Assembly (NCBI RefSeq): GCF_025602895.1
Contig: NW_026516482.1
Span: 1-33,596, forward strand
DNA length: 33,596 bases
Reading direction: 5' to 3'
From: Polychytrium aggregatum
Lineage: Eukaryota; Chytridiomycota; Chytridiomycetes; Polychytriales
Shown: in pieces, positions 8,201-28,725 of the stretch
How the letters are laid out: every line of letters begins with the position of its first letter
How positions within the stretch are numbered: the first letter of the stretch is position 1
Made by a program: the position numbers and the translations under genes
Notes under the pieces: model-generated
The model's database searches: none
Told to the model about the DNA's origin: nothing
The model's input: the letters and a program-made list of their open reading frames with translations, nothing else

Positions 8201-11200
8201 AAGAGCAAGAGCAAGAGCAAGAGCAAGAGCAAGAGCAAGAGCAAGAGCAAGAGCAAGAGCAAGAGCAAGAGCAAGAGCAAGAGCAAGAGCAAGAGCAAGA
8301 GCAAGAGCAAGAGCAAGAGCAAGAGCAAGAGCAAGAGCAAGAGCAAGAGCAAGAGCAAGAGCAAGAGCAAGAGCAAGAGCAAGAGCAAGAGCAAGAAGAG
8401 TGCGTGTAAACCATCATACGGCGCGCACCAAGCTCGGGCTCATTTTGTGAGCAGTCCCAGTCGAGACCACCGAACTAAACCATGCAGCAAAGAGCTAACC
8501 AGTGCTCTGAGACATACCGCGGATTTTGGATCCAAACACCGTGATCATGTGTGCGACGAGGAAACCGGTTTGTGCCCCTTGTGGGCGGTAGACATACTTG
8601 CCCATCACATCAACAAATGTGTCGTTCAAGTCTGTGACGATCGATGACAGCTTCAGGCCTGACAAGGCGCCCTTCTCCATGTATCCACTCGACTGCGCCA
8701 GTTGAGAGTGGAGCATGAAGGACAGGTCGCAAAGTCCAAGGACCGATCCGCATTGAAACTTTTTCTTGAACACCTCCATCGGATGTGATTGCAGGTAGCC
8801 ATGGAGATCCTCCGAGGCGGTCTCTTTGAGGGTGTCGCTCTCCCTGCCAAGGACTGTCAGGCGATCAGCCAGCGTATCCACCGACGCGATGGCGTCCCTC
8901 AGACTCGTCTTCATTGTTGTCTCCAGCGTGGCTCGACGTGTGTAGACAATATGAGAGGATTCTCCCACGGTGTCTTCGTACTTTGTAGTCAAGAGCATGG
9001 ACGTGCCCGCCGAGCCTGTCAAGGTGGCTTCCAGCTCAGACGCGAGGAGCCTGAACCAATCTTGCTTGAGCAAGTGGTCACGAATCGTTTCCACGAGTTC
9101 TTGATAGGCATTCCAGTGTCCCGCAATATCCTGCATAGCTTCCGTGAGGTCCGTAACAAGACTGATTTGCTGATCTTGGAGTGCAGAGAGTTCATTGAAT
9201 TGATTCGGATCAAGTCCTTCAACATCTGTTGACCCTTGATCCGACCAGAATGGAATAATCGCAAATGCGGTGCAGTGCTCTAGCAGATCTTGGAAGTCGA
9301 GCGCCTGAGTATATACGACGCAAGCCGCAGAGTCAGACGGAGGTATCAAGCGACGTCCCTCTCCCCAGGCTAAAACCGATAACAGAAGACCAGTGGTCCA
9401 TATCGCTGGCCCCTGCTCTGTGTGGTCGTGATACCTACCTCATGGTTCATCATCGCTGCTTCATGACGGGCCTTCCAATCGCGGTACATCTCGAGTTGAT
9501 GAGCAAGCTCGGCTGCGGTCTCGTTCTCATCAGCCTGTTGCTGGTCAGGGCTCCACGACAGGCGCAACTCCTGCCGATACGCCTCAATCTTTTCCGTGAC
9601 ATCGTCGCGATGGTTCAGCCGTCGGATAAAGCCCTCAAGGTTACGTTGGATGTCCCTCACTGTCGTCATCATCTGTCGCTCGTCTTTGTCAAGTGCTGGC
9701 TTGAGCTCGGCTAATGAATACAAAGGATCGAGTCCGAGAGGTTAGCTCGACCGCAGAGCCGCCTGTGGCCGTCCGAACCCACCCAGCTCCAAAGCACACG
9801 ATCAATACCTAGGCGCAAGACAATCAGGCCAATGTGGACATTGACTTCCAGAACGCGCTTGCGCACACTGTCCGAGAGATTGCTGGTCCAGTCCACCAAA
9901 GGATCGTAAACAAAGGCTTCGAGCAGCGTCAGAATGATTTCCTTGTTGCGGCGCATCACCTGCATGGTGTGTTCGCAGGCAATGCGGAAGGTGCCCTCGA
10001 TGCCGGTGATGCCCAGGGCCGATAGAAAGTTCTGTGTTAGGCGGAAGGGCACTGTTTCGGGGATTCGCAGCTTCCTTCCCTTTTCAAAACACACGTTGTA
10101 GTCGATGTGCAGGACATCTCCGCTTGATGGATCAAAGAGAATATTGTCGAGATGGCGATCGCCCAAGCCAATGAGATAGCCCACAATGGACATGACGGCC
10201 AGTGACCGGGCATAGCTGTTTGTTTTCGTCCACCACTCGGCCGGAGAGCTGGACGAGCACCACAGCTCGCGCGAGAGGGCCATCGACGACGACTCGCTGT
10301 TAAGCTTTTTGAAGACATCGCGATGCAGCGAGCGCGGCCACGAGCCTCTTGGGGCGTTTCTTGGGAGTTTGTACTTTCTCAAGGCCACCCGGACCCTTTC
10401 GCCATAAAGCCCATGCGTCGTCGGAAACTTGTAATCGGCATCGGGTTGCTGGTTATTCTGGAGCATGGTGGCCACGTGGTCGCGCTGGAACCATCCCTTG
10501 TAGATGGCAAAGACGGGCATGACATTCTGGACCCACTGGATCATTCCGTGTTGGTGGCCAAAAGGAATCACGGAATAGCCGCGGGCATGCAGACGACGCC
10601 GCTTGGAGTCGTTATCGTGACGCAGCATCTGGTTCGTGATGGTGAGCAACTGCTGGACGCGCTCGTCGAGATGCAGATCCTCGTGGCCTTTCAGGAGATA
10701 CGTGTAGTACTGTCCGTTCGAGCCAACCATGGTGATCTTCTTGGGCTTGGTCTTGGTATTGAGCACCTGTACATCCTCGAGGATGCGCTCGATTGTAATC
10801 AGCTCTCCATGAATCGGGATGCCAGGGATGGGGATCATGGATCCCTGTCGTCCAGCCAGCAGCGGACTGATCGAATGCATTTTGAGTGCCCGGAATCGGT
10901 GAAGCTCGGATCCGAGTTTTGCGTGAACCTGGTCGTGTTTGACGATGCCGTTAGCGCAGATCGGGTTGTGCGGCGATATGGATCAGCCCTGCATCATATG
11001 GAGGAGGGGGTCGAGCTGGGACAAGCTGGGTCGAGCTGGGTCGAGCTGGGACAACCTGGGTCAAACGCGGCAGCAGGGAAGGCCAGGCGTGCTACCCACC
11101 TTCTTGAATAGTGTCCAGGCCTCTTGGGGCTTCTCTACATCACTAGGCGCTTTAATCAGCATCAAAGCCCGGTCAATCTCATCCTTGTAGAGCTGCTGAA

Positions 11201-14200
11201 ACAGTCGTTCGTGGTCCGTCGAGGCCGCCGCATGGATGGTGCTGCTGCCCAGATGGTCCAGCTCCACAAAGATGGGGTTCATGATGATGTTATAGGCATC
11301 CCGCAGAGCGGTTTCTCGGCTTCTGCCCGAGGCCGCCTTGTTGTGTGTGATCCTGTGGAGCTCATTCTCGTACCGCTGAAGGCGCTTGGCAATGTCGCTT
11401 TGCATTTGATCCAAGCGATGGAGCCAGGTTTCTTCCCACAGTACCGTGATGCGCTGCAGCTCGCTGACCATCCGCTCGACCTGGGAAACCAGCGTCGACA
11501 GCCCGTTTTTTCGCAGAGACGAGACGATTGCGATGAAGCTCGAGTCCGCTGCCGAAGACTCGCGAATCGCCAGCAGCGACCCAACGACAGCATGGTAGAT
11601 GACAAGGTGAGGGGAATCGCGGCCGATGCGGCAAAGCACATCTGTGATGAGCGAACGCACCAAATGCTCAGGGTGACGCAGGCGAGAAAACAGCTGGGGA
11701 GTGACGCTCTCCCAGGGAGCCGTGGGACTATCGGCAAAGCCTTGGCGGAATACGGGCTCGAGAGCTGCGCCAAATTTGACAAACAGCCGAAGAATTCGAA
11801 GTGCCGCAACGATCACATTGTACTCGTTTGTTGAGGTACCCGCGGCATCCGCCCCGCTGTGTAGCACCTGCTGGGTTCCAAGCACCTCGTCAGTCGTATG
11901 AAGAACCCCCCCCCCAGCAGTCGGCACGCATGGCGCCAACTCTGGATATGCAGGCAGAAGCACAATGGCAGCAATGGCAGCACTGATAGTCATGTGGTGG
12001 TATCCATTCATACCTCATCGTCGGGGCAGGTTTTAGAGTCCGCATCGTGGTTGAGACGCAGATACGTAAAGTAACCCACGACGGCATTCTCGTAGTGGTC
12101 CAGGATTCGCTTGTATATGCCCAGCACAATTCCGATGACCGCGCGAACGCCACTATCGTCTATGGATGGGAATGCTTGCCGAAGGCGTGTTTCGATTGCC
12201 TGAGCAACATCCAAGCCAGCGCTACCACCAGTCATGCCACTTTTCTCGACGTCTTTCAAAAAGATCTCGGCTAGAACCTGACGCATGGTGCTGGTATCGA
12301 CGGGCTCATCGCCGCCGGCAGTGTGGGCAAGAATGCATTTGAATTCGTCTTCGAGGAACACGAATTGCTTGTTGTGTGCCGCTGTCACCTCTTCAGTAAG
12401 CTTTCGTCCCAAGCGATAGCAGTACGAGGAGTAAGCGAACCAGACCTTGGCAGATGCCGGATTTGTGTCTTTTGCGCGGATCAAACTCTGGGTCGCGAGA
12501 TACTCAGCAAAGCGATAGTGAGCGTGCTCAGCCCCCGTTGTCAAGTCTCCGGCTTTCTGCGATATTTCGGGGGAGGCACAGATGACCACCAGATTCTCTA
12601 CCAATCGCGAGGACACCTCACTTTCGAGGTCGATACTGCGTGTCCTCTGGGACAGGTAGAGCAGTGCCTTGGACAAGATTGATGGGGCCTTTGAAGCTGT
12701 ATCGACATTGGCAGAGGCGGCCCAAGTTGCCAGCTTGGCGAGCGATCCGAGGAACTCGTCAACTTGGCCGCATTCAAAGTGCGTCTTGGCCTTTTGGTAA
12801 ATCCAATCGAACTGATCGATGTGCATTCCGGCATCCAGTTTCTCCAGTCGCCTCAGGGTTTTGATCGAAAGCGCGTGGCATTCGGACTTCCGGGCAACTT
12901 TGGCAATCTTCAAGACCACATCTGTGCATCCTTTGGCACAGTCCAAGTGGTGAGACTGGGCGAAATGGATCAGGGAGCCGAGGCGGTTGAGGTTGCTGAG
13001 ATGAGACGACTCGCTGTGTGCCACAAGGTCGGTCGAGTAGCCCAAGCAGCCGCCCAACATCTCTCGAAGTGCGCCTATAGCTTGCAGTTCCAAGAACGCC
13101 GATGAAAGCTGCTCGGGCGACTCCAGGTCAACGAGTTGCAGCGCCGCCAGCACTCGCTTCTCCGCTGAGTCGATAAGGCCTAATACCGACGAAACTAAAC
13201 TGTCGTCCGAACTAGCGCCGTGGAGCAGCAGTAGTGCGTCGGTTTGCTGCCTCGCAGCCCAGTTGAAAGTGCCCTTGACTAGGCCGCCATGAAGGAGCTC
13301 CACAGGAGTTGGGACCTCTGCAGACGACAACCGCGACTGGGATACACGTGGTGCATCGCCACGACCAAGTTGCCACCAGCTGCGAAGGTATTCGGTGGCG
13401 TATCCAGTGTCGAATGTGGAGGCCAGTTCAGTGCCGACATATTCAGACCGCCACTCCTTCAAAATTGGCAGCCACTGCTTCATTGACTCGTAATCGGCGA
13501 GGGCAACGTAGCAGTTTGTAATCTAAATCACAAGGGAATGTTGGTGGCGGTTTTGGCGAGCCACAAATCCAATTTCAGTTCCCAGTAGCCATAGCATCGT
13601 TTGTCAAGGCTTTGGCGGGTCATATCTCGCCTGCTGCCAGAGCACTTGCGAGCAATCCGGTAGATGGCGTCGATACAGACCTGCTTGATCAGCACAGATA
13701 TTTCATGGTGGTAGCTTGGCAGATCACCCTTTTGAATCATCATCTTGAGACGGGCACGGAGCAATTCAATCGCAGTTTCGAAGCGCGCATCGGAAATGCA
13801 GCCCAGTGCCTCGATCCAGGCCACATCAATCTTGACCGTGCCCGTGACAGGCACGAACGCATCTCCTGCGGGCTCGCTTCCAGACTCGACCGCGTCCGTG
13901 GGCTTCTTGGCCAGAATCAAGCGCTCTGCGCAGTGTTCCGTGCCAAAAATGCTGTGTTAGTACCGCTAGAGGCTGCTCAGATGGGTGTAGGAGCAGAATT
14001 CCAAGGCAGGTACGGATAGGGTCCCAGCGATGTATCTCGTTTCGTTCGTGGCTTACTCATGTCGGGCTCCTTGGTCCTTTTGGGAGTGACGTCCACGGGA
14101 ACGTAGGTGACCTTTCGCGACCATTGGACAAGACCCACAATGGGATCTGGATCCGTGAGCTTGGACATGGCAAGCGCCAGATGCACGATTCTGGTAGAAA

Positions 14201-20101: not shown

Positions 20102-22441
20102 ATGACCCACACGCCGGATACTCTCGCCCGCGACTCGGACGACATCGATCACATTCGATTCGATCCGCCTCTGTGGAGACAGCGGCGGTCTCTTGTCTCG
20201 AGCCTGCTCGCTGCCCACAACGTGCAATCGGTGAGGAGACGGTGCTGGCTGGCAGCGGCATACCGGGGCCGCGGATTGGTAGCAACAGCAAATCCTGCAG
20301 CTGCCTACGGGCAGAAGCGACCCCTACAGCGAGTCGATCCGTCTGATTTGGTTGCTCCACGCAACGCTCATCTCCAAATCAGCCACTCGGATGGGTGCGC
20401 CGAGCATGCGAGCAGTGTTTGGCAGCCAGCAGAGGAATAAGCTCGCCCTGGTGCTCACGCATCTTCGCTCGCTCGCTTGGCCGCAACCGCAACCGCAACC
20501 GCAACCGCAACCGCAACCGCAACCGCAACCGCAACCGCAACCGCAACCGCAACCGCCGCCATCGCCAATATCTAGGTCGTCGACTATGGATGTGGCGAAG
20601 GTGCCCTGCTCGAAATCCTCCTCAACTCGACCCAGTTTGACCGGCTGATCGGTCTCGACATTTCGGAAGAGTCGCTCTACAGCGCTTGCGAAACCTGCTA
20701 TCCAACCGACAACGACTTTCGGTTCCTGAGGGAGCTGCCGATCGTGCTGGACCTCTATCTGGGCTCTGTGGACCGCTTTGACTCGCGACTGACGGGACAC
20801 GATGCCCTCGTCTCGTTGGAGGTGTAAGTGGACCGGCCATCATAGAACGCCGTGTTCGATCGACTTCGGGTGGCCAGAGGGGGCGATACGACTGAATGCG
20901 ATATGGAGCCTTGCTGTCGGAGCTGGTTGAATGTAGCGGCAAGATATCCCAGACTCACCCCGCATGCCAACATGCACATGCTCTGCCTGCAGCATCGAGC
21001 ACCTGGATCCCCCTGTGCTCGAGGCCTACCCGGAAATCGTTTTTGGTCGATACCAACCTCGGCTTGTGATCGTCACCACCCCGAATGCCGAGTTCAACGT
21101 CTTTTTCCCAAATCTGAACTATGGAACCCCACACGCAACGTTGCGGAACGACGACCACCGATTCGAGTGGACCCGCCGAGAGTTTGAAACCTGGTATGCG
21201 ATAAGCAACAGCATGACTGCATGCAGGAGAGTCGATACGCCCGAGCGCGCCCTCCCCCCTTGGGTCTTTGGCTAACGCAGCAACGATATTCCAGGGCACA
21301 AAGTATTGCGCTCGACTACGGCTACGCTGTGAGCTTCACCGGAGTCGGTTACTGGTACAACGACGAAAAAACTCTTACCGACATTGGCTTTTGCACCCAA
21401 GTGGCGATATTCCAGCGCAACGAACCCGATCCAGCTGCGATCGCGCCGGTCGACACTACAGCTGCTCCCAATGAGAGTGCCAGCACGACTCTTGCTGCAC
21501 CCTTGCAGTGCAGCCCTCCGGGGACGAGCTCGTCGAGCAAGCCGAGCGTCGAATTAGCAAGCGACACTGTCACCAGCCTTTCCAATCTTCCCTCCACCGA
21601 ACCAGCAGAGCCAGCCGATGCTCCTCAGGCCGATCCAGACACCAACATTGTGGTTGCGACGAGCCCGATTCACTCGCATATACTTTTCGAATCCATCGGG
21701 TATCCATTTTTTGATGAGCCGGCCCTATCTGGAAGCGAGCTGCTGGATCTCATCAAACAGGAAGCCACGGATCTGCACCACAACGATATAACGTGGGCTC
21801 ACCTGTCACGTTCGCCGCTGTCCACTGAGCCAGAAATCGATGCATCCGGCAGCACAATCAATCTCTCGCTCGGTCAACTGTGGTCGGTCCTGAAGGTGCG
21901 ACAACACTGCAAGCACATTGCCACGCTGGTGGATGCTCTTCGCACCGACCTCGGCAGGGATCTCTTTGAGCTCTATGAAACAGATTCGCCAAGCTCGGAC
22001 CTGGGTAGCCACGTAGAAGATTCGCTGAGAAGAACCTGGGTCCGCTCGAGGTTCCTGGCGCCGCCGGTGACATGGTTGCACTCTCTCGAAGCCCCGGCCT
22101 CGGACTCGGACACCGCCGAATCGGACGATGAGAGCATTCCAGAGCCCCCACGGGAGAAGCGTGATCCAGGCCCAGCCATGGCGGACTGGAAGACGGCCGA
22201 TATCGCCAATCGGACGTGGCAGCCCTCGGCAGCGCCCTGGCCGGCGCCTGGATGGGGGTCCGAGGCTTTGGGAGATGTCCCAGCCGACGGCAGCGGTATC
22301 CAAGGCCAGACCGAAGCGATAACGACGGGCTGGGGTGTGTATGAGGGCCCAGCACAGAGCGGCGCCGAGGAAGGAGGCTGGCAGGCATTTGTCTCGGACG
22401 GGAACGATCCTGCGCCGACAGTTAACAGCGGATGGGAGTAG
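20102..22441 (+). CDS. HEN1: HEN1-type small RNA 2'-O-methyltransferase with GW-rich tail
   Basis: HEN1 adds a 2'-O-methyl group to the 3' nucleotide of small RNAs, protecting them from trimming. Four exons (20102-20230, 20576-20823, 20993-21193, 21295-22441) join in frame to 574 residues. Visible signatures: FDPPLWRQR near the N terminus, SAM-binding VVDYGCGEG at 44-52, EVIEH spanning an intron with Glu125, Glu128, His129, then His181 in DDHRFEWTR. These four match the HEN1 divalent-metal ligands. IVTTPNAEFN and GVGYW also fit the family. Human HENMT1 is ~390 residues, so the ~330 residues after the domain are an extension. It is acidic and low complexity and ends in seven tryptophans (491-573), four of them in GW/WG context, resembling an Argonaute hook. 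The start at 20102 gives a typical N-terminal length, but earlier in-frame ATGs exist. Confidence 0.93.
20480..20556. repeat. CCGCAA hexamer microsatellite in HEN1 intron 1
   Basis: About 12 units, ending ~20 nt before the acceptor ATATCTAG (20575). It lies inside the intron that splits NVQS from VVDYGCG. Confidence 0.95.
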
Positions 22442-22882
22442 ATTGGATGAATATATAGTGGACGACCTGCAGATGACGTCAAGTCGCAGACACAGTCGGT
22501 CCAGAAAGAAACGGGACCCCCATTGTCTGCAGAATGGCATGCGACACCTCTGCCCTGCCAAGGAGGGCTGCTTGCCGACGCCCGATCAATATGCAGCATC
22601 GAAGCGAGTCCACAGCTGGTTGGCCTGATTGTGCCGTCGCCAGCCAAAGCGATCGGCGTGCTGGTCCGCCACCCGGCTGCCATTGGTCCAGGCCGGTGCC
22701 CACAATCCAACAGGTCTGGTTGCGTTCGGCGAGACGTTCTCCCCTTCCCGATCGGTGCGTCTCCACATCCGCCCGCACTGGACTCATCGTCGCCATCGCT
22801 CGCACCGCACTGTTTGCCGAACCCGAACCCGAACCCGCAGCCGCCTGAACCGCCTCCATCCGCCCTCCCGTCGCTGCAGCAA
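22442..22882. promoter_or_regulatory. Region between HEN1 stop and first PDK1 ATG
   Basis: About 440 bp. It should hold the HEN1 3' end and the promoter and leader of the first PDK1 gene. The PDK1 frame is open back to 22523 and would add a Pro/Asn-rich stretch, but contains no ATG before 22883. I see no other gene. Confidence 0.45.
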
Positions 22883-25660
22883 ATGCATTCGGAGCCGCTC
22901 GTTGCAGCACAGCCTCCCGAGGCGACCCTGGATGCCCCACCAAGCCCGGCCCCTGTCGATGCCACGCTCGAGGAGGATATTCCTCGTGCGGTCGAACAGG
23001 CAGAGCAGACAAAGCAGGCAGAGCAGACAAAGCAGGCAGAGCAGACAAAGCAGGCAGAGCAGGCAGAGCAGGCAGAGCAAGCAGAAGCAGTGGAGGTGGC
23101 ACCAATCGACACCTCGGTGAATAATACGCATGCTCCGACGGGCGACTCTGACGTCAAGCCAGACTCGAGCCCATCCGCCGAGCCGTCATTGCCGGCAGAC
23201 GCTTCAGTCAAAGGCCGGCCTCGGGCCAATACCGAAGAGCAGTCCGCCGACGACGAGCAGAGTCTTCTGCGTCCGCGAAACCGTGCTGACTTTGAATGGG
23301 GTGAGATTTTGGGGGAAGGCTCGTTTTCCACAGTCGTCCATGGCCGCGAGCCAGCAACCAACCGGCAGTACGCCGTCAAAATCCTCGAAATAAGCCGGGT
23401 TGTGCGGTACGACAAGGTCCGGTACGTCTATGTCGAGAAGCAGGCCCTCAAGATTCTACAGCATCCGTTCATCATTCGGCTTTACTACACATTCAAGGAC
23501 CGCGAAAGCCTGTACTTTGTGCTTGAGCTGGGTGAGAAGGGCGACCTGCTCCAGTTTATCAAAAGTGTAGGTGTCTTTGACATGGACACGGCCCGATTCT
23601 ACACAGCCGAGATCGTCACCGCCGTCGAGTACATCCACAGCTGCAATATTCTGCATCGGGACCTCAAGCCCGAGGTGAGTTGATGCCATCGCGACTCCAC
23701 GCTATTCTCTTTGCGAGCCCTCGACAATCGCACTTATCGGATTCGCTGTGGCATGGACAGAACATCGTCCTGGATGGCAAGGGTCACATCCGAGTAAGTC
23801 GAATGATTCCGGGGCAATCCACATCGCCGCTGAATCGATGCAGTTGGAGGGTCGGTTGGATATGACTGTGAGGGCGCTACGGACGAAGAGCTCGTGCGAG
23901 TGCCGTGCTTGAGCTATTCGAGAATCACGCCAATGTGATCTACGCGGCTGTTGATAGTCCAGCACCGTGTGCTGGCACTGTCAGGACGAAGATATGGTTC
24001 TGACCGGCCACGAATCGACTCGTCTTGGCAGATCACCGACTTTGGATGCGCCAAAATCCTAGAAAACGACCCAACAGCCGACCCGGAGGGTTCCACTCTG
24101 AAGAAAAAGCGATCGTTTGTGGGAACGTCCGAGTACTGCTCGCCCGAGCTGCTGCTGGACCAACCCATCGCGTGGCCATGCGACGTATGGGCGATCGGAT
24201 GCATGCTGTATCAAATGCTGGCCGGACGACCGCCGTTCAAGGGTGCCAATGAGTATTTGACACTCCAGAAGGTTCAGAACCTAGAGTACAGCTTTCCGAG
24301 CGACTTTCCTGAAGTTGCGAGAGATCTGGTGCAGCTGATCTTGACCCTGGACGCTGACGAGCGATACACGATTCCGCAAATCAAGGCACATCCCTTCTTT
24401 GATGGGTTCGATTGGACGGACCTCCATCTCCAGACGCCGCCGGTGCCGCTGCCGAGGGAGGTGCCCGTGTATTTCGACTCTCTGGAAGCAATCGCCCAGC
24501 GGCTCCCCACGGCTGTCGCTGAACAGGGCGGTGCCGAATGTGTCTATAACGATGGCTACTCGGATTCGGAAGCCGGCTGGCCTGACGCTGAAGCATCCGA
24601 CGTGATGCCCATATTTTTCCACGAGCCGATAGCCCTGAGCCGGAAAGCCAACGCAAGTGTCGACGAAAGCAGCATCCTGAGCGAAACTCATCTCAACCTA
24701 TATCGCGACGATGATCGGCCTCATCCAATTGGGGTCCCCACCATTGTCGACTGCAGCGAGACGGATACACAGTCGATGGTCTCGCACAACCATGGAATGT
24801 CCGGGACTCTCGGAAGGACCGGCAATCGCAACCAGTCCGAGCACAATCCTCCGGCCAACGTCGATCTTCGGAAGCAATCTATTATCAAGCAGGCAGAGTC
24901 GAATGGCGAGGATACAGACTCTGGCACGAACAGCCCAAAGTCCCGCAACGATAGTCGCGACTCAAGCTCACCCGATCTCTATGGAACGCCCTCCAACCGG
25001 CGGCTTTCACGAAATGAGCACAACATCGCCATGGACTTTAGCCGCGACGCCCTAGTGACCCAATTTATGGCCAAGAACAAGCTGGGATACTCTGTCGGAG
25101 ACTCTGCCAGGGACATTGCCTCCTCGGGCGACATCCGCGACTCGAGTTACAGCATCGAGTCGGCCACAACAAGCCCGTCGTCGGCTTTGGCATCCGAGTT
25201 TTACAACGATCGCGCTGCCATGGCGATGGCGACTCTCCCACGGTGGTCCGCAGACATGGGTACCCGAGACATGGGCGCCCGAGACATGAGCCCGCGGGAT
25301 CAGGGGATGAGGCTTCCTGGCGAAGTCGTCTTTGAGTACAACGAGAAGGGTGCACAGAAGCGATGGAACCTCCGAGAGATGTTCCCGGGCGACCGGATTC
25401 TGAAGCACGGGCTCGTGACTCGCAAAAAGACATTTTTTTCAAAGCACCGACTGCTGGTGCTGACGAACAAGCGGCTGCTCGTTGTCGATCCGGCGCAAGC
25501 AACTGTGCGAGACGAGGTTGTGCTGAAGGACGAGTTTTCGATCGAACTGAAGAACGCACGCAGATTCACCATCACGATGCAGAAGAAGGCGTGGGTCTTT
25601 GACGACCGCACGGGCGGCGCTTCAGACTGGGTCGATTCAATCAACTCGGCGCGGCCATGA
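22883..25660 (+). CDS. PDK1-type AGC kinase with PH domain (copy A)
   Basis: 3-phosphoinositide-dependent kinase homologue (PDPK1/Pkh family), which activates other AGC kinases by T-loop phosphorylation. Three exons (22883-23674, 23761-23793, 24032-25660) give 817 residues. Residues 1-135 are disordered with an EQTKQA repeat. Kinase ~138-415: GEGSFSTV at 144-151, Lys166 in YAVK, HRDLKPE with Asp260, NIVLD in the 33-nt exon, DFG at 278-280, and a T-loop RSFVGTSEYCSPE with Ser303 at the PDK1 autophosphorylation site. The PIF-pocket segment VEKQALKILQHPF is family-like. A Ser/Asp-rich linker follows, including the repeat GTRDMGARDM. The PDK1-type PH domain is at ~705-815 (KTFFSKHRLLVLTNKRLLVVDP). 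The start is the first in-frame ATG. All kinase residues are intact. Confidence 0.9.
22995..23087. repeat. Coding repeat, Glu-Gln-Ala-rich
   Basis: Tandem GCAGAGCAGACAAAG and GCAGAGCAG units inside exon 1 of PDK1 copy A encode EQTKQA and EQA repeats (residues ~38-68). It is likely a length-variable, disordered or coiled segment. Confidence 0.85.
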
Positions 25661-26622: not shown

Positions 26623-26652
26623 ATGGACGAGCCCCTGTCTGCTCCCTCGCAG

Positions 26653-26687
<35 letters not shown>

Positions 26688-28725
26688 GCCGGCAACACCC
26701 TCGACCCCAATCCATCCGCCACTGCTCTACGGACCCACAAACCCGCTCTCGCCCATGTCGCCCCGAACGCCCAGCGGCCGTGCTGTGCATCGCAGCGATT
26801 TCAAGTTTGGCAAGGTTATCGGCGAAGGCTCGTTCTCCACCGTCTACCACGCCCAGGAGCTCATCTCCGGGAGGCCCGTTGCGATCAAGGAAATCGAGCA
26901 GAAGAAGGTCATCCGGAGCCGAAAGGTCCGATATATCCACATCGAGAAGCAGGCCCTCAAGATCCTCAAGCACCCATTCATCGTCCGCCTGCACTCGACA
27001 TTCAAGGACTCGACCTTTCTGTACTTTGTCCTCGAGTACTGCGAGAAAGGCGATCTGCTGCACCTGATCCGGGGCGTCCGCCACTTTGACACCGACGCCG
27101 CCCGGTTTTATCTCGCCGAGCTCATCGTCGCCGTCGAGTACATGCACAAGACCAACGTGCTGCATCGGGATCTCAAGCCCGAGGTAGGCTTGCGGCAATG
27201 GCTGTGTGCGTCCTTTTCTGCGATGGAGTTTGTCGTCCGATCCGTCCGGCTCGGTGTTCATGACTTGTGCCGTGTCTGCCAGCCCGACCTGTCCTGCTTT
27301 GGAATGTGGGATGTGCATCCGTCTCTGACCTTGGCTCATGCTGCTTGCCCTCCCAGAACATTGTCCTGGACTCGGAAGGACACATTCGGGTACGTCCCTC
27401 TCATGCGCTTTCGTGATATCCGCACCCTGCCACCCGGACCGATTCGAGCCTCTCCGCATTTGCTCATCCCTTCCTGTCCCTTCTCTTTCAGGTCACCGAT
27501 TTTGGCTGTGCCAAGATTCTCGACACAGAGCCGACCGAAGACGACGGCAACCCAAAGCCCGAACGGAAGCGGTCGTTCGTTGGCACCCCCGAGTACTGCT
27601 CGCCAGAGCTCATCACCAGCCAAGGAATTTCATGGCCATGCGACGTCTGGGCCGTTGGCTGTATTCTCTATCAGATGCTGGCCGGCCGACCCCCGTTCAA
27701 GGCCCCGAATGAGTATCTCACTTTCAAGAAGATCCAGAATCTCGAGTACAACTTCCCGCCAGAGTTTGATCCCGTTGCCAAAGATCTTGTCGAGAAGATC
27801 CTCGTCCTCGACCAGGAGACACGATACACTCTCGAGGACATCAAGGCCCACGAGTTTTTCAAGGGCTTTGACTGGGTCGACTTGCATCTGCAGACACCGC
27901 CTGTGCTGCAACCACAGCCTGTGGCCACTCCAGACTCCGAGACGCTCGACAAGATCGCCTCGCGCATCATCAACTCGATCATGATCGGCGATACACCCGA
28001 GTTTATCCACGCAGATGCCTACTCGGACGATGAGTCGGCTTCAGAGGCCGAGCCGACGATGCCGACGATTCCCGCAGCCTTTCAAAAGACCTGCCGGACT
28101 GAAGCAGCCACAGCAGCTCCTGGTCAAGATGCCCGATCGCCTGGCCCCAGTGGATCCCTTGTTGGTGAAGTCTCGGCCAGCGCTCTTTGCTCAGAGCTCG
28201 CAAAGCGAAACGCTCTTCGAGACTGAGGCGGGCACGACAAACCAAGATCCGCTCAAGATCGTCCAGGGCCAGGCAGAGGTTGAGTCAGCCGCCGTCTATG
28301 TGCCAGGTCGATTCGCGACGGAACGAACAAGCCTCTCTGATCAGAATGCCGGCATCGCGCTAGCGCGAGAGCAAAGCAGTCAGAGCCTGCGCTACGAATT
28401 TGTTGAGCGGAACGTCCGAAAGCTCTGGCGACTCTCGGAGCTTTTGCCACAGGAGCAGGTCATCAAGTGCGGCGCGTTGATCCTGCGAAGAACATTTTTC
28501 AGCAAGCGGCGCATGGTCGTCCTGGCGGCCGCCAAGATCATCATCCTCGAGGGCGAGACCGGCGCCATCAAGGACCAAATCAGCCTCGGCGCCCAGCCCA
28601 CAGTGCAGCAGCGAACTGAAAAGACATTCACGGTGACCGTTGGCAAGCGCTCATGGGTGTTTGAGGAGCCGACAAAGCAGGTGCAGCCCTGGATCGAGGC
28701 CATCAAGGCAACCATCGACAACTGA
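26623..28725 (+). CDS. PDK1-type AGC kinase with PH domain (copy B)
   Basis: Second PDK1 homologue, same direction as copy A. The ATG has a strong CACCATGG context. Exons: 26623-27183, 27357-27389 and 27492 onward. A polyalanine run (residues 12-21) precedes the kinase: GEGSFSTV, Lys89 in VAIK, HRDLKPE with Asp183, NIVLD in a 33-nt exon, VTDFG, T-loop RSFVGTPEYCSPE. Both introns sit exactly where copy A has them. After the kinase the frame changes between ~28034 and ~28180: upstream residues read in one frame (stop at 28228) and the PH domain (RTFFSKRRMVVLAAAK, WVFEEP) in the next. A short intron would fix it (28123-28180 or 28034-28088 both work); a 1-nt sequence error is the alternative. 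Predicted length is ~590 residues. Catalytic residues are intact. Confidence 0.88.
26653..26685. repeat. GCT triplet run encoding polyalanine
   Basis: About ten GCT codons in the N terminus of PDK1 copy B. Confidence 0.93.

Follow-up and report, generated by a model that had tools for sequence, protein, structure and literature searches.

How HEN1 methyltransferases find Argonaute-bound guides is, to our knowledge, poorly defined at residue level. Among the systems closest to the gene described here, HENMT1, DmHen1 and bacterial Hen1 have in common with it a methyltransferase fold, a SAM motif and an E..EH...H metal site, and GW182 proteins are built from UBA, Q-rich and RRM domains. The binding sites of TNRC6 hold at least two tryptophans, ten or more residues apart, according to the accessible text of PMC9262622. 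WG/GW motifs also form AGO hooks on silencing-related proteins, namely Tas3, NRPD1b (Pol V), KTF1 and viral P1 (available sections of PMC2904775), and the HEN1 considered below likewise carries such motifs. In Tetrahymena, CnjB/Wag1 has GW repeats and acts in the pathway of Hen1p and the Argonaute Twi1p, and Hen1p methylates Argonaute-loaded RNAs (excerpts of PMC5666084).

The HEN1 small-RNA 2'-O-methyltransferase gene of the chytrid Polychytrium aggregatum lies at 20102..22441 on the + strand of a 33.6-kb contig (C202) of the 64.7-Mb genome; the contig, at its full length of 33,596 nucleotides, is the window analysed here. Its four exons (20102-20230, 20576-20823, 20993-21193 and 21295-22441) are separated by GT..AG introns throughout and encode a product of 574 aa. 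A protein search returned the public model P0001, an uncharacterised P. aggregatum protein, at 100% identity over the entire query. P0001 is 620 aa long and has 46 extra residues upstream, with the complete tryptophan tail included; the N-terminus, which differs between the two models, is uncertain.

The top solved-structure match was the methyltransferase domain of human HENMT1 (4xcx), both by sequence (E 5.9e-52) and by fold (E 1.4e-23). Alignment to 4xcx and the E..EH...H metal-site residues place the intron-interrupted methyltransferase domain at residues 18-236 (20153..21424, +). In an alignment of 45 sequences (620-aa numbering), the metal-site residues E174, H175 and H227 are present in 45/45 rows and E171 in 44/45, with one gap. 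A second folded domain with an LWxxLxIRQxCK motif follows at about residues 320-424 (21674..21988, +), where 10-residue AlphaFold pLDDT means are 71-98 and W435 and Q442 (620-aa numbering) are nearly invariant. The AlphaFold model, built with the 45-sequence alignment, has a mean pLDDT of 66.9 and a pTM of 0.62, with high confidence in these two domains. The 50 rows listed by the structure search contained matches to methyltransferases and no named relative of the C-terminal domain. A Pfam scan found methyltransferase families alone, with no dsRNA-binding domain and none of the GW182 type, and the match to TIGR04074 (bacter_Hen1; E 5.7e-53, 180 bits) lies below the family cut-off of 340. By fold, sequence and metal site, the gene is a HEN1, whose product would methylate the 3' ends of small RNAs.

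Contig C112 carries a second copy of the gene, whose exon-4 frame of 406 aa is identical. The two copies differ solely by two repeat indels over 4.2 kb, both outside the tail, and C112 therefore gives no independent variation on the tail. One indel is 36 bases of a hexamer repeat in HEN1 intron 1 (20481-20516), and the other comprises 10 repeat bases within the N-terminal open frame of the downstream kinase (23048-23057); both are absent from the C112 copy. As a length of 10 is not divisible by three, there may be a misassembly in one of the copies, or the kinase may start further in. A number of genes are present in two copies, identical in protein or in score, on the contig pairs C135/C8, C112/C202 and C48/C375, which suggests that the duplicated contigs are haplotype copies retained in the assembly. 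Elsewhere in the genome the exon-4 query found weak matches, and two of the three that reach the tail region (L011 and L012) have no tryptophan in the matched part. The neighbouring kinase, which we take to be of the PDK1 type, occupies 22523-25660 (+), with a protein kinase domain over two open frames and a PH_3 domain, and one more protein kinase domain lies at 26623-27984 (+). On the minus strand, consecutive frames at 9711-13483 match PI3_PI4_kinase and FAT, with FRB and HEAT_ATR weak and below cut-off, and look like pieces of a PIKK-type kinase.

The C-terminal tail is predicted to be disordered over residues 425-574 (21989..22438, +). A preliminary description of this DNA had noted a tryptophan-rich, AGO-hook-like stretch at 22180..22441 (+) in a disordered context. 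The disorder agrees with the AlphaFold prediction, in which residues 471-519 and 521-620 (620-aa numbering) all fall below a pLDDT of 50, with the tryptophan-rich segment among them. The span is right for that segment, but the predicted disorder starts earlier, at about 21989. The seven tryptophans that had been listed (491, 501, 508, 513, 539, 555 and 573; codons starting at 22187, 22217, 22238, 22253, 22331, 22379 and 22433) and the terminal SGWE are exact in the spliced 574-aa product, with gaps of 10, 7, 5, 26, 16 and 18 between successive tryptophans. Glycine flanks are found as described at 513, 539, 555 and 573; the first three tryptophans read DWK, TWQ and PWP.

Read in any of the remaining five frames, the tail DNA encodes 1-2 tryptophans, as compared with 7 in the coding frame, which disfavours an effect of DNA composition. 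As a control we drew 176 non-overlapping open frames of at least 150 aa (coding status not established) from 200 kb of this genome. Windows of 85 aa with at least 7 tryptophans occurred in 4/176 of them, and in none (0/176) did the tryptophan-richest window hold at least 5 tryptophans with at least 4 of them Gly-flanked, where the HEN1 tail scores 7 and 4. These frame controls, together with the tryptophan-specific signals given below, disfavour chance, base composition or a DNA-level effect as the source of the tail.

Relatives were taken from the best 120 of 1566 protein matches, and 64 HEN1-like proteins were examined, with clade and order names assigned by us from the species names. Full length, a species name and the C-terminal motif were present in 47/64, and 43/47 have a tail. 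Left out were proteins with no recognised C-terminal motif (P0039, P0050, P0058, P0059 and P0061), partial ones (P0002, P0004, P0020, P0026 and P0057) and unnamed metagenomic ones (P0011, P0013, P0018, P0044, P0047, P0049 and P0062); the 12 partial or unnamed rows have 2-5 tryptophans in six and 0-1 in six. Four proteins in which the tail is absent or very short (P0037, P0041, P0046 and P0060) were kept out of the tail counts and count against universality. They include the HEN1s of the three Mucorales seen (Halteromyces, Syncephalastrum and Pilobolus) and Entomophthora muscae, whose tails of 5-28 aa have zero tryptophans. Zopfochytrium P0039 also has none beyond the C-terminal domain, and Blyttiomyces JEL0837 has one in its tail. 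At least 3 tryptophans were found in 40/43 full-length named fungal tails (for P0065 and P0068 the point where the tail begins depends on a doubtful motif match). The tail, far from being the oddity of one chytrid that it had appeared to be, is carried by other chytrids and further fungi and is common to most early-diverging fungal HEN1s seen here; it recurs across several fungal lineages. In Mucorales, the loop before the C-terminal domain holds three tryptophans in Halteromyces (P0037) and one in Syncephalastrum (P0046), and the hook may have been relocated to this inner loop. In P0050 and P0060, precomputed Pfam annotation joins the HEN1 models to DEAD/helicase domains, and P0050 by eye runs into Dicer-like helicase sequence, which suggests that HEN1 adjoins or is fused with Dicer in some fungi.

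Tryptophan makes up 224/4246 residues (5.3%) of the 43 tails, as compared with 272/16046 (1.7%) of the remainder of the same proteins, and glycine precedes tryptophan 60 times where shuffles predict 17.3. With one sequence per genus (29 genera), tryptophan is enriched 3.05-fold in the tail, tyrosine 1.12-fold and phenylalanine 0.49-fold. In this set glycine stands before tryptophan 46 times (13.0 expected) and after it 31 times (13.4 expected), gaps of at most 4 between tryptophans are rare (8 vs 26.0 expected), gaps of 5-20 are frequent (86 vs 62.0 expected), and a tryptophan falls within the final six residues in 20/29 (8.3 expected); all of these expectations were calculated as if related species were independent. 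Tyrosine and phenylalanine in the 29-genus tails gave no Gly-flank or spacing signal. Tryptophans with a glycine neighbour exceeded the shuffles in Chytridiomycota (35 vs 13.8), Glomeromycotina (13 vs 4.1), Mortierellomycotina (23 vs 12.4) and Blastocladiomycota (8 vs 2.7), and the excess was absent from the two Endogone/Bifiguratus sequences (1 vs 0.7).

A rule based simply on the last 100 aa gave a mean of 5.05 tryptophans and 2.27 GW/WG in 44 chosen fungal HEN1s (P0061 included; P0039, partial, unnamed and no-tail rows left out), 43/44 of which have at least 3 tryptophans. The 53 bacterial-type rows (P0063-P0120 less five, taken as a block rather than checked row by row) have means of 2.15 and 0.06 and at most 3 tryptophans and 1 GW/WG. 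The fern HEN1 P0089 has one tryptophan and zero GW/WG beyond its methyltransferase domain.

We then compared the retention of tail tryptophans with that of other tail residues, as the fraction of aligned cells kept, under a scoring in which tryptophan matches were valued no higher than alanine matches. Tryptophan was kept at 0.78, as compared with 0.35 for other residues, in Glomus/Rhizophagus/Funneliformis, at 0.77 vs 0.30 in Rhizophydiales and weakly, at 0.39 vs 0.29, in Mortierellaceae. Between chytrid orders the values were 0.22 vs 0.24, and in two Synchytrium tails 0 of 10 tryptophans vs 0.29 of other residues were kept. In an alignment of five Glomeromycotina and three Rhizophydiales, two tail tryptophans are invariant in 8/8 rows while the linker changes. 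The expectation that the tryptophans persist while the linker diverges thus holds in two families, weakly in Mortierellaceae, and fails between chytrid orders and in Synchytrium; tryptophan number is therefore widely kept, and tryptophan position only within some families. A word search with the C-terminal region by itself (235-457 of P0007, from the saprobic chytrid Spizellomyces punctatus, which has this tail) retrieved only P0007, because the tail diverges too fast for this kind of search.

The P. aggregatum genome encodes candidate Argonaute partners, with PIWI-domain loci on C24, on C377 and on the C135/C8 pair, along with an RdRP match on two contigs and four Dicer_dimer matches. Two of the three findings that the preliminary description had named as speaking against a hook, absence of the tail from close relatives and a genome devoid of Argonaute, did not turn up; the third, removal of the tail by splicing, is countered indirectly by the public gene model, which retains it. 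The C135 Argonaute (891 aa by our own model, 96% identical to the public P0121) is nearer human AGO2 (8d6j, E 1.8e-216) than the C24 Argonaute (11gi, E 3.4e-117). In human AGO2, we take F587, V591, F653, Y654, L694 and Y698 to be residues of the tryptophan pockets. C135 retains P590, F653, Y654, K660, C691, L694, Y698 and P700; at E695 it has D, at V591 T and at F659 A, and F587 is changed. Of the 15 positions checked, 11 are kept, by residue identity only. K660, E695, Y698 and P700 are lost from the C24 and C377 paralogues, in a part of the alignment that is gapped. Among the 120 Argonautes listed out of 230 at E 1e-20, all of P590, K660, C691, D/E695 and P700 are kept in 113, and F587, V591 and F659 are kept in 0/120, so at least one pocket differs from that of human AGO2. 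Many Mucorales Argonautes of the set compared, and a few others, e.g. that of Basidiobolus, carry a catalytic DDD in place of DDH, with D for H at its third position. The accessible text of PMC9262622 assigns C691 and P700 to pocket 3, and a 2025 survey, in its available part, reports fungal Trp pockets as variable overall with TRP3 distinctly conserved (PMC12477606). C. elegans ALG-1 mutated jointly at K803, E838, P733 and F802, which we map by a constant offset to AGO2 K660, E695, P590 and F659, loses its GW182-type partners (PMC5147811, excerpted text).

Taken together, we put at about 0.7 the probability that most early-diverging fungal HEN1s end in an AGO hook that would dock on an AGO1-type Argonaute for small-RNA methylation. 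Docking is a candidate because tryptophan enrichment, glycine flanks, spacing and predicted disorder coincide with the C135 pocket residues in the same genome. The acidic disordered tail would hold out a series of spaced tryptophans to the PIWI-domain pockets, the hook would tether the methyltransferase near the guide 3' end, and HEN1 would methylate the 2'-OH of a small RNA that is loaded or being loaded; C135, with its kept pockets, would be preferred over the divergent C24 and C377. We infer from sequence both the binding of tail to pocket and its service to methylation. The simplest form of this reading is that HEN1 would dock on an AGO1-type Argonaute already loaded and then methylate the 3' end. 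The accessible text of PMC9262622 reports stronger binding of TNRC6 to loaded AGO than to AGO lacking a guide. The HEN1 of Rhizophagus irregularis (P0017) has a 3-W tail; in this fungus HEN1 peptides were detected, and 54 small-RNA loci show enrichment among methylated and also among AGO-loaded small RNAs (PMC8647823, in the part available).

The same tail evidence would fit a handover before loading: methylation of the duplex by HEN1 would come first, as it does in plants, after which the hook would hand the duplex over or bring in the Argonaute that loads it. Plant HEN1 indeed methylates double-stranded RNA, but mammalian HENMT1, whose methyltransferase domain gave the closest solved structure here, methylates only single-stranded RNA (both from the available text of PMC10781085). 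Plant HEN1 has dsRNA-binding domains, as given in excerpts of PMC3882329, whereas Pfam finds methyltransferase families alone in this protein. With the TNRC6 preference for loaded AGO (PMC9262622, as above) also against it, we regard the handover as unlikely.

We consider it quite improbable that the tail tryptophans bind some other partner with a tryptophan pocket, such as CCR4-NOT subunits, or a silencing-body scaffold. Tryptophan-based short motifs do serve several adaptors, and CCR4-NOT subunits are also used by GW182 proteins. Both Halteromyces Argonautes (P0186 and P0197) retain the five pocket residues, although the Halteromyces HEN1 (P0037) has no tail; partners are therefore not one to one, another partner must hold the pockets there, and HEN1 alone is an insufficient explanation for them. 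However, the HEN1 substrate would naturally sit on Argonaute, and the glycine flanks and the spacing are like those of AGO hooks. The acidity, predicted disorder and spaced aromatics of the tail would also suit a generic sticker-and-spacer region placing HEN1 in condensates, but this is very improbable, since tryptophan alone is enriched, with tyrosine near background and phenylalanine depleted, and neither of these is Gly-flanked or spaced. That a fast-evolving C-terminus came by such a tail through chance or compositional drift, to which the self-only match of P0007 might point, is hardly credible given the 40/43 fungal tails rich in tryptophan, the tryptophan-specific retention in two families and the single tryptophan-rich frame out of six.

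Beyond docking of the HEN1 hook on Argonaute, it is a tentative proposal, somewhat short of even odds, that the hook is ancient among fungi, being shared by Chytridiomycota, Blastocladiomycota, Glomeromycotina and Mortierellomycotina, that it was lost in Mucorales, and that it decides which Argonaute's guides are methylated. This last role is suggested because the AGO1-type protein keeps pocket residues of which its two paralogues lost several. HEN1 may be one of the GW partners that preserved the Trp pockets in fungal Argonautes.

We found no HEN1 with a GW tail in the listed titles and abstract beginnings of papers on HEN1, AGO hooks and early-diverging fungi, and such a tail goes unmentioned in the available portions of PMC2904775, PMC3882329, PMC4246224, PMC5666084, PMC10781085, PMC6123492, PMC13136243, PMC11855461 and PMC2877743. 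Within the portions surveyed, a known enzyme and a known kind of motif thus stand in a pairing described nowhere. If the docking reading is true, a hook fused to the enzyme would be a simple residue-level answer to how HEN1 finds guides, and would explain how methylation could be confined to the guides in one Argonaute. It would also supply a fungal GW partner where the available part of the 2025 survey judged the Argonaute pockets variable (PMC12477606). Its scope would take in many early-diverging fungi, including a mycorrhizal one with reported methylated, Argonaute-loaded small RNAs (available part of PMC8647823).

Set against the known systems, the P. aggregatum HEN1 differs from the HENMT1/DmHen1/bacterial Hen1 family in adding a tryptophan-rich tail past the C-terminal domain. 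This tail resembles the Argonaute-binding domain of GW182/TNRC6 in being disordered, by prediction, with spaced, Gly-flanked tryptophans, and the pocket residues are largely present in Argonaute; unlike that domain, it is fused to a small-RNA methyltransferase rather than to a deadenylase scaffold and has no Pfam-detected homology to it. The hooks of Tas3, NRPD1b, KTF1 and P1 sit on other host proteins and have been tested for Argonaute binding, whereas the HEN1 tail is known from its sequence. Past its methyltransferase region, the HEN1 of the barnacle Amphibalanus (P0119) has an acidic stretch like the fungal tail, here with five tryptophans in some 40 residues, but further sequence follows, and it is a single sequence from an animal. 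In Tetrahymena, GW repeats and methyltransferase are described as separate proteins in the accessible text of PMC5666084, whereas the fungal HEN1 has both in one chain.
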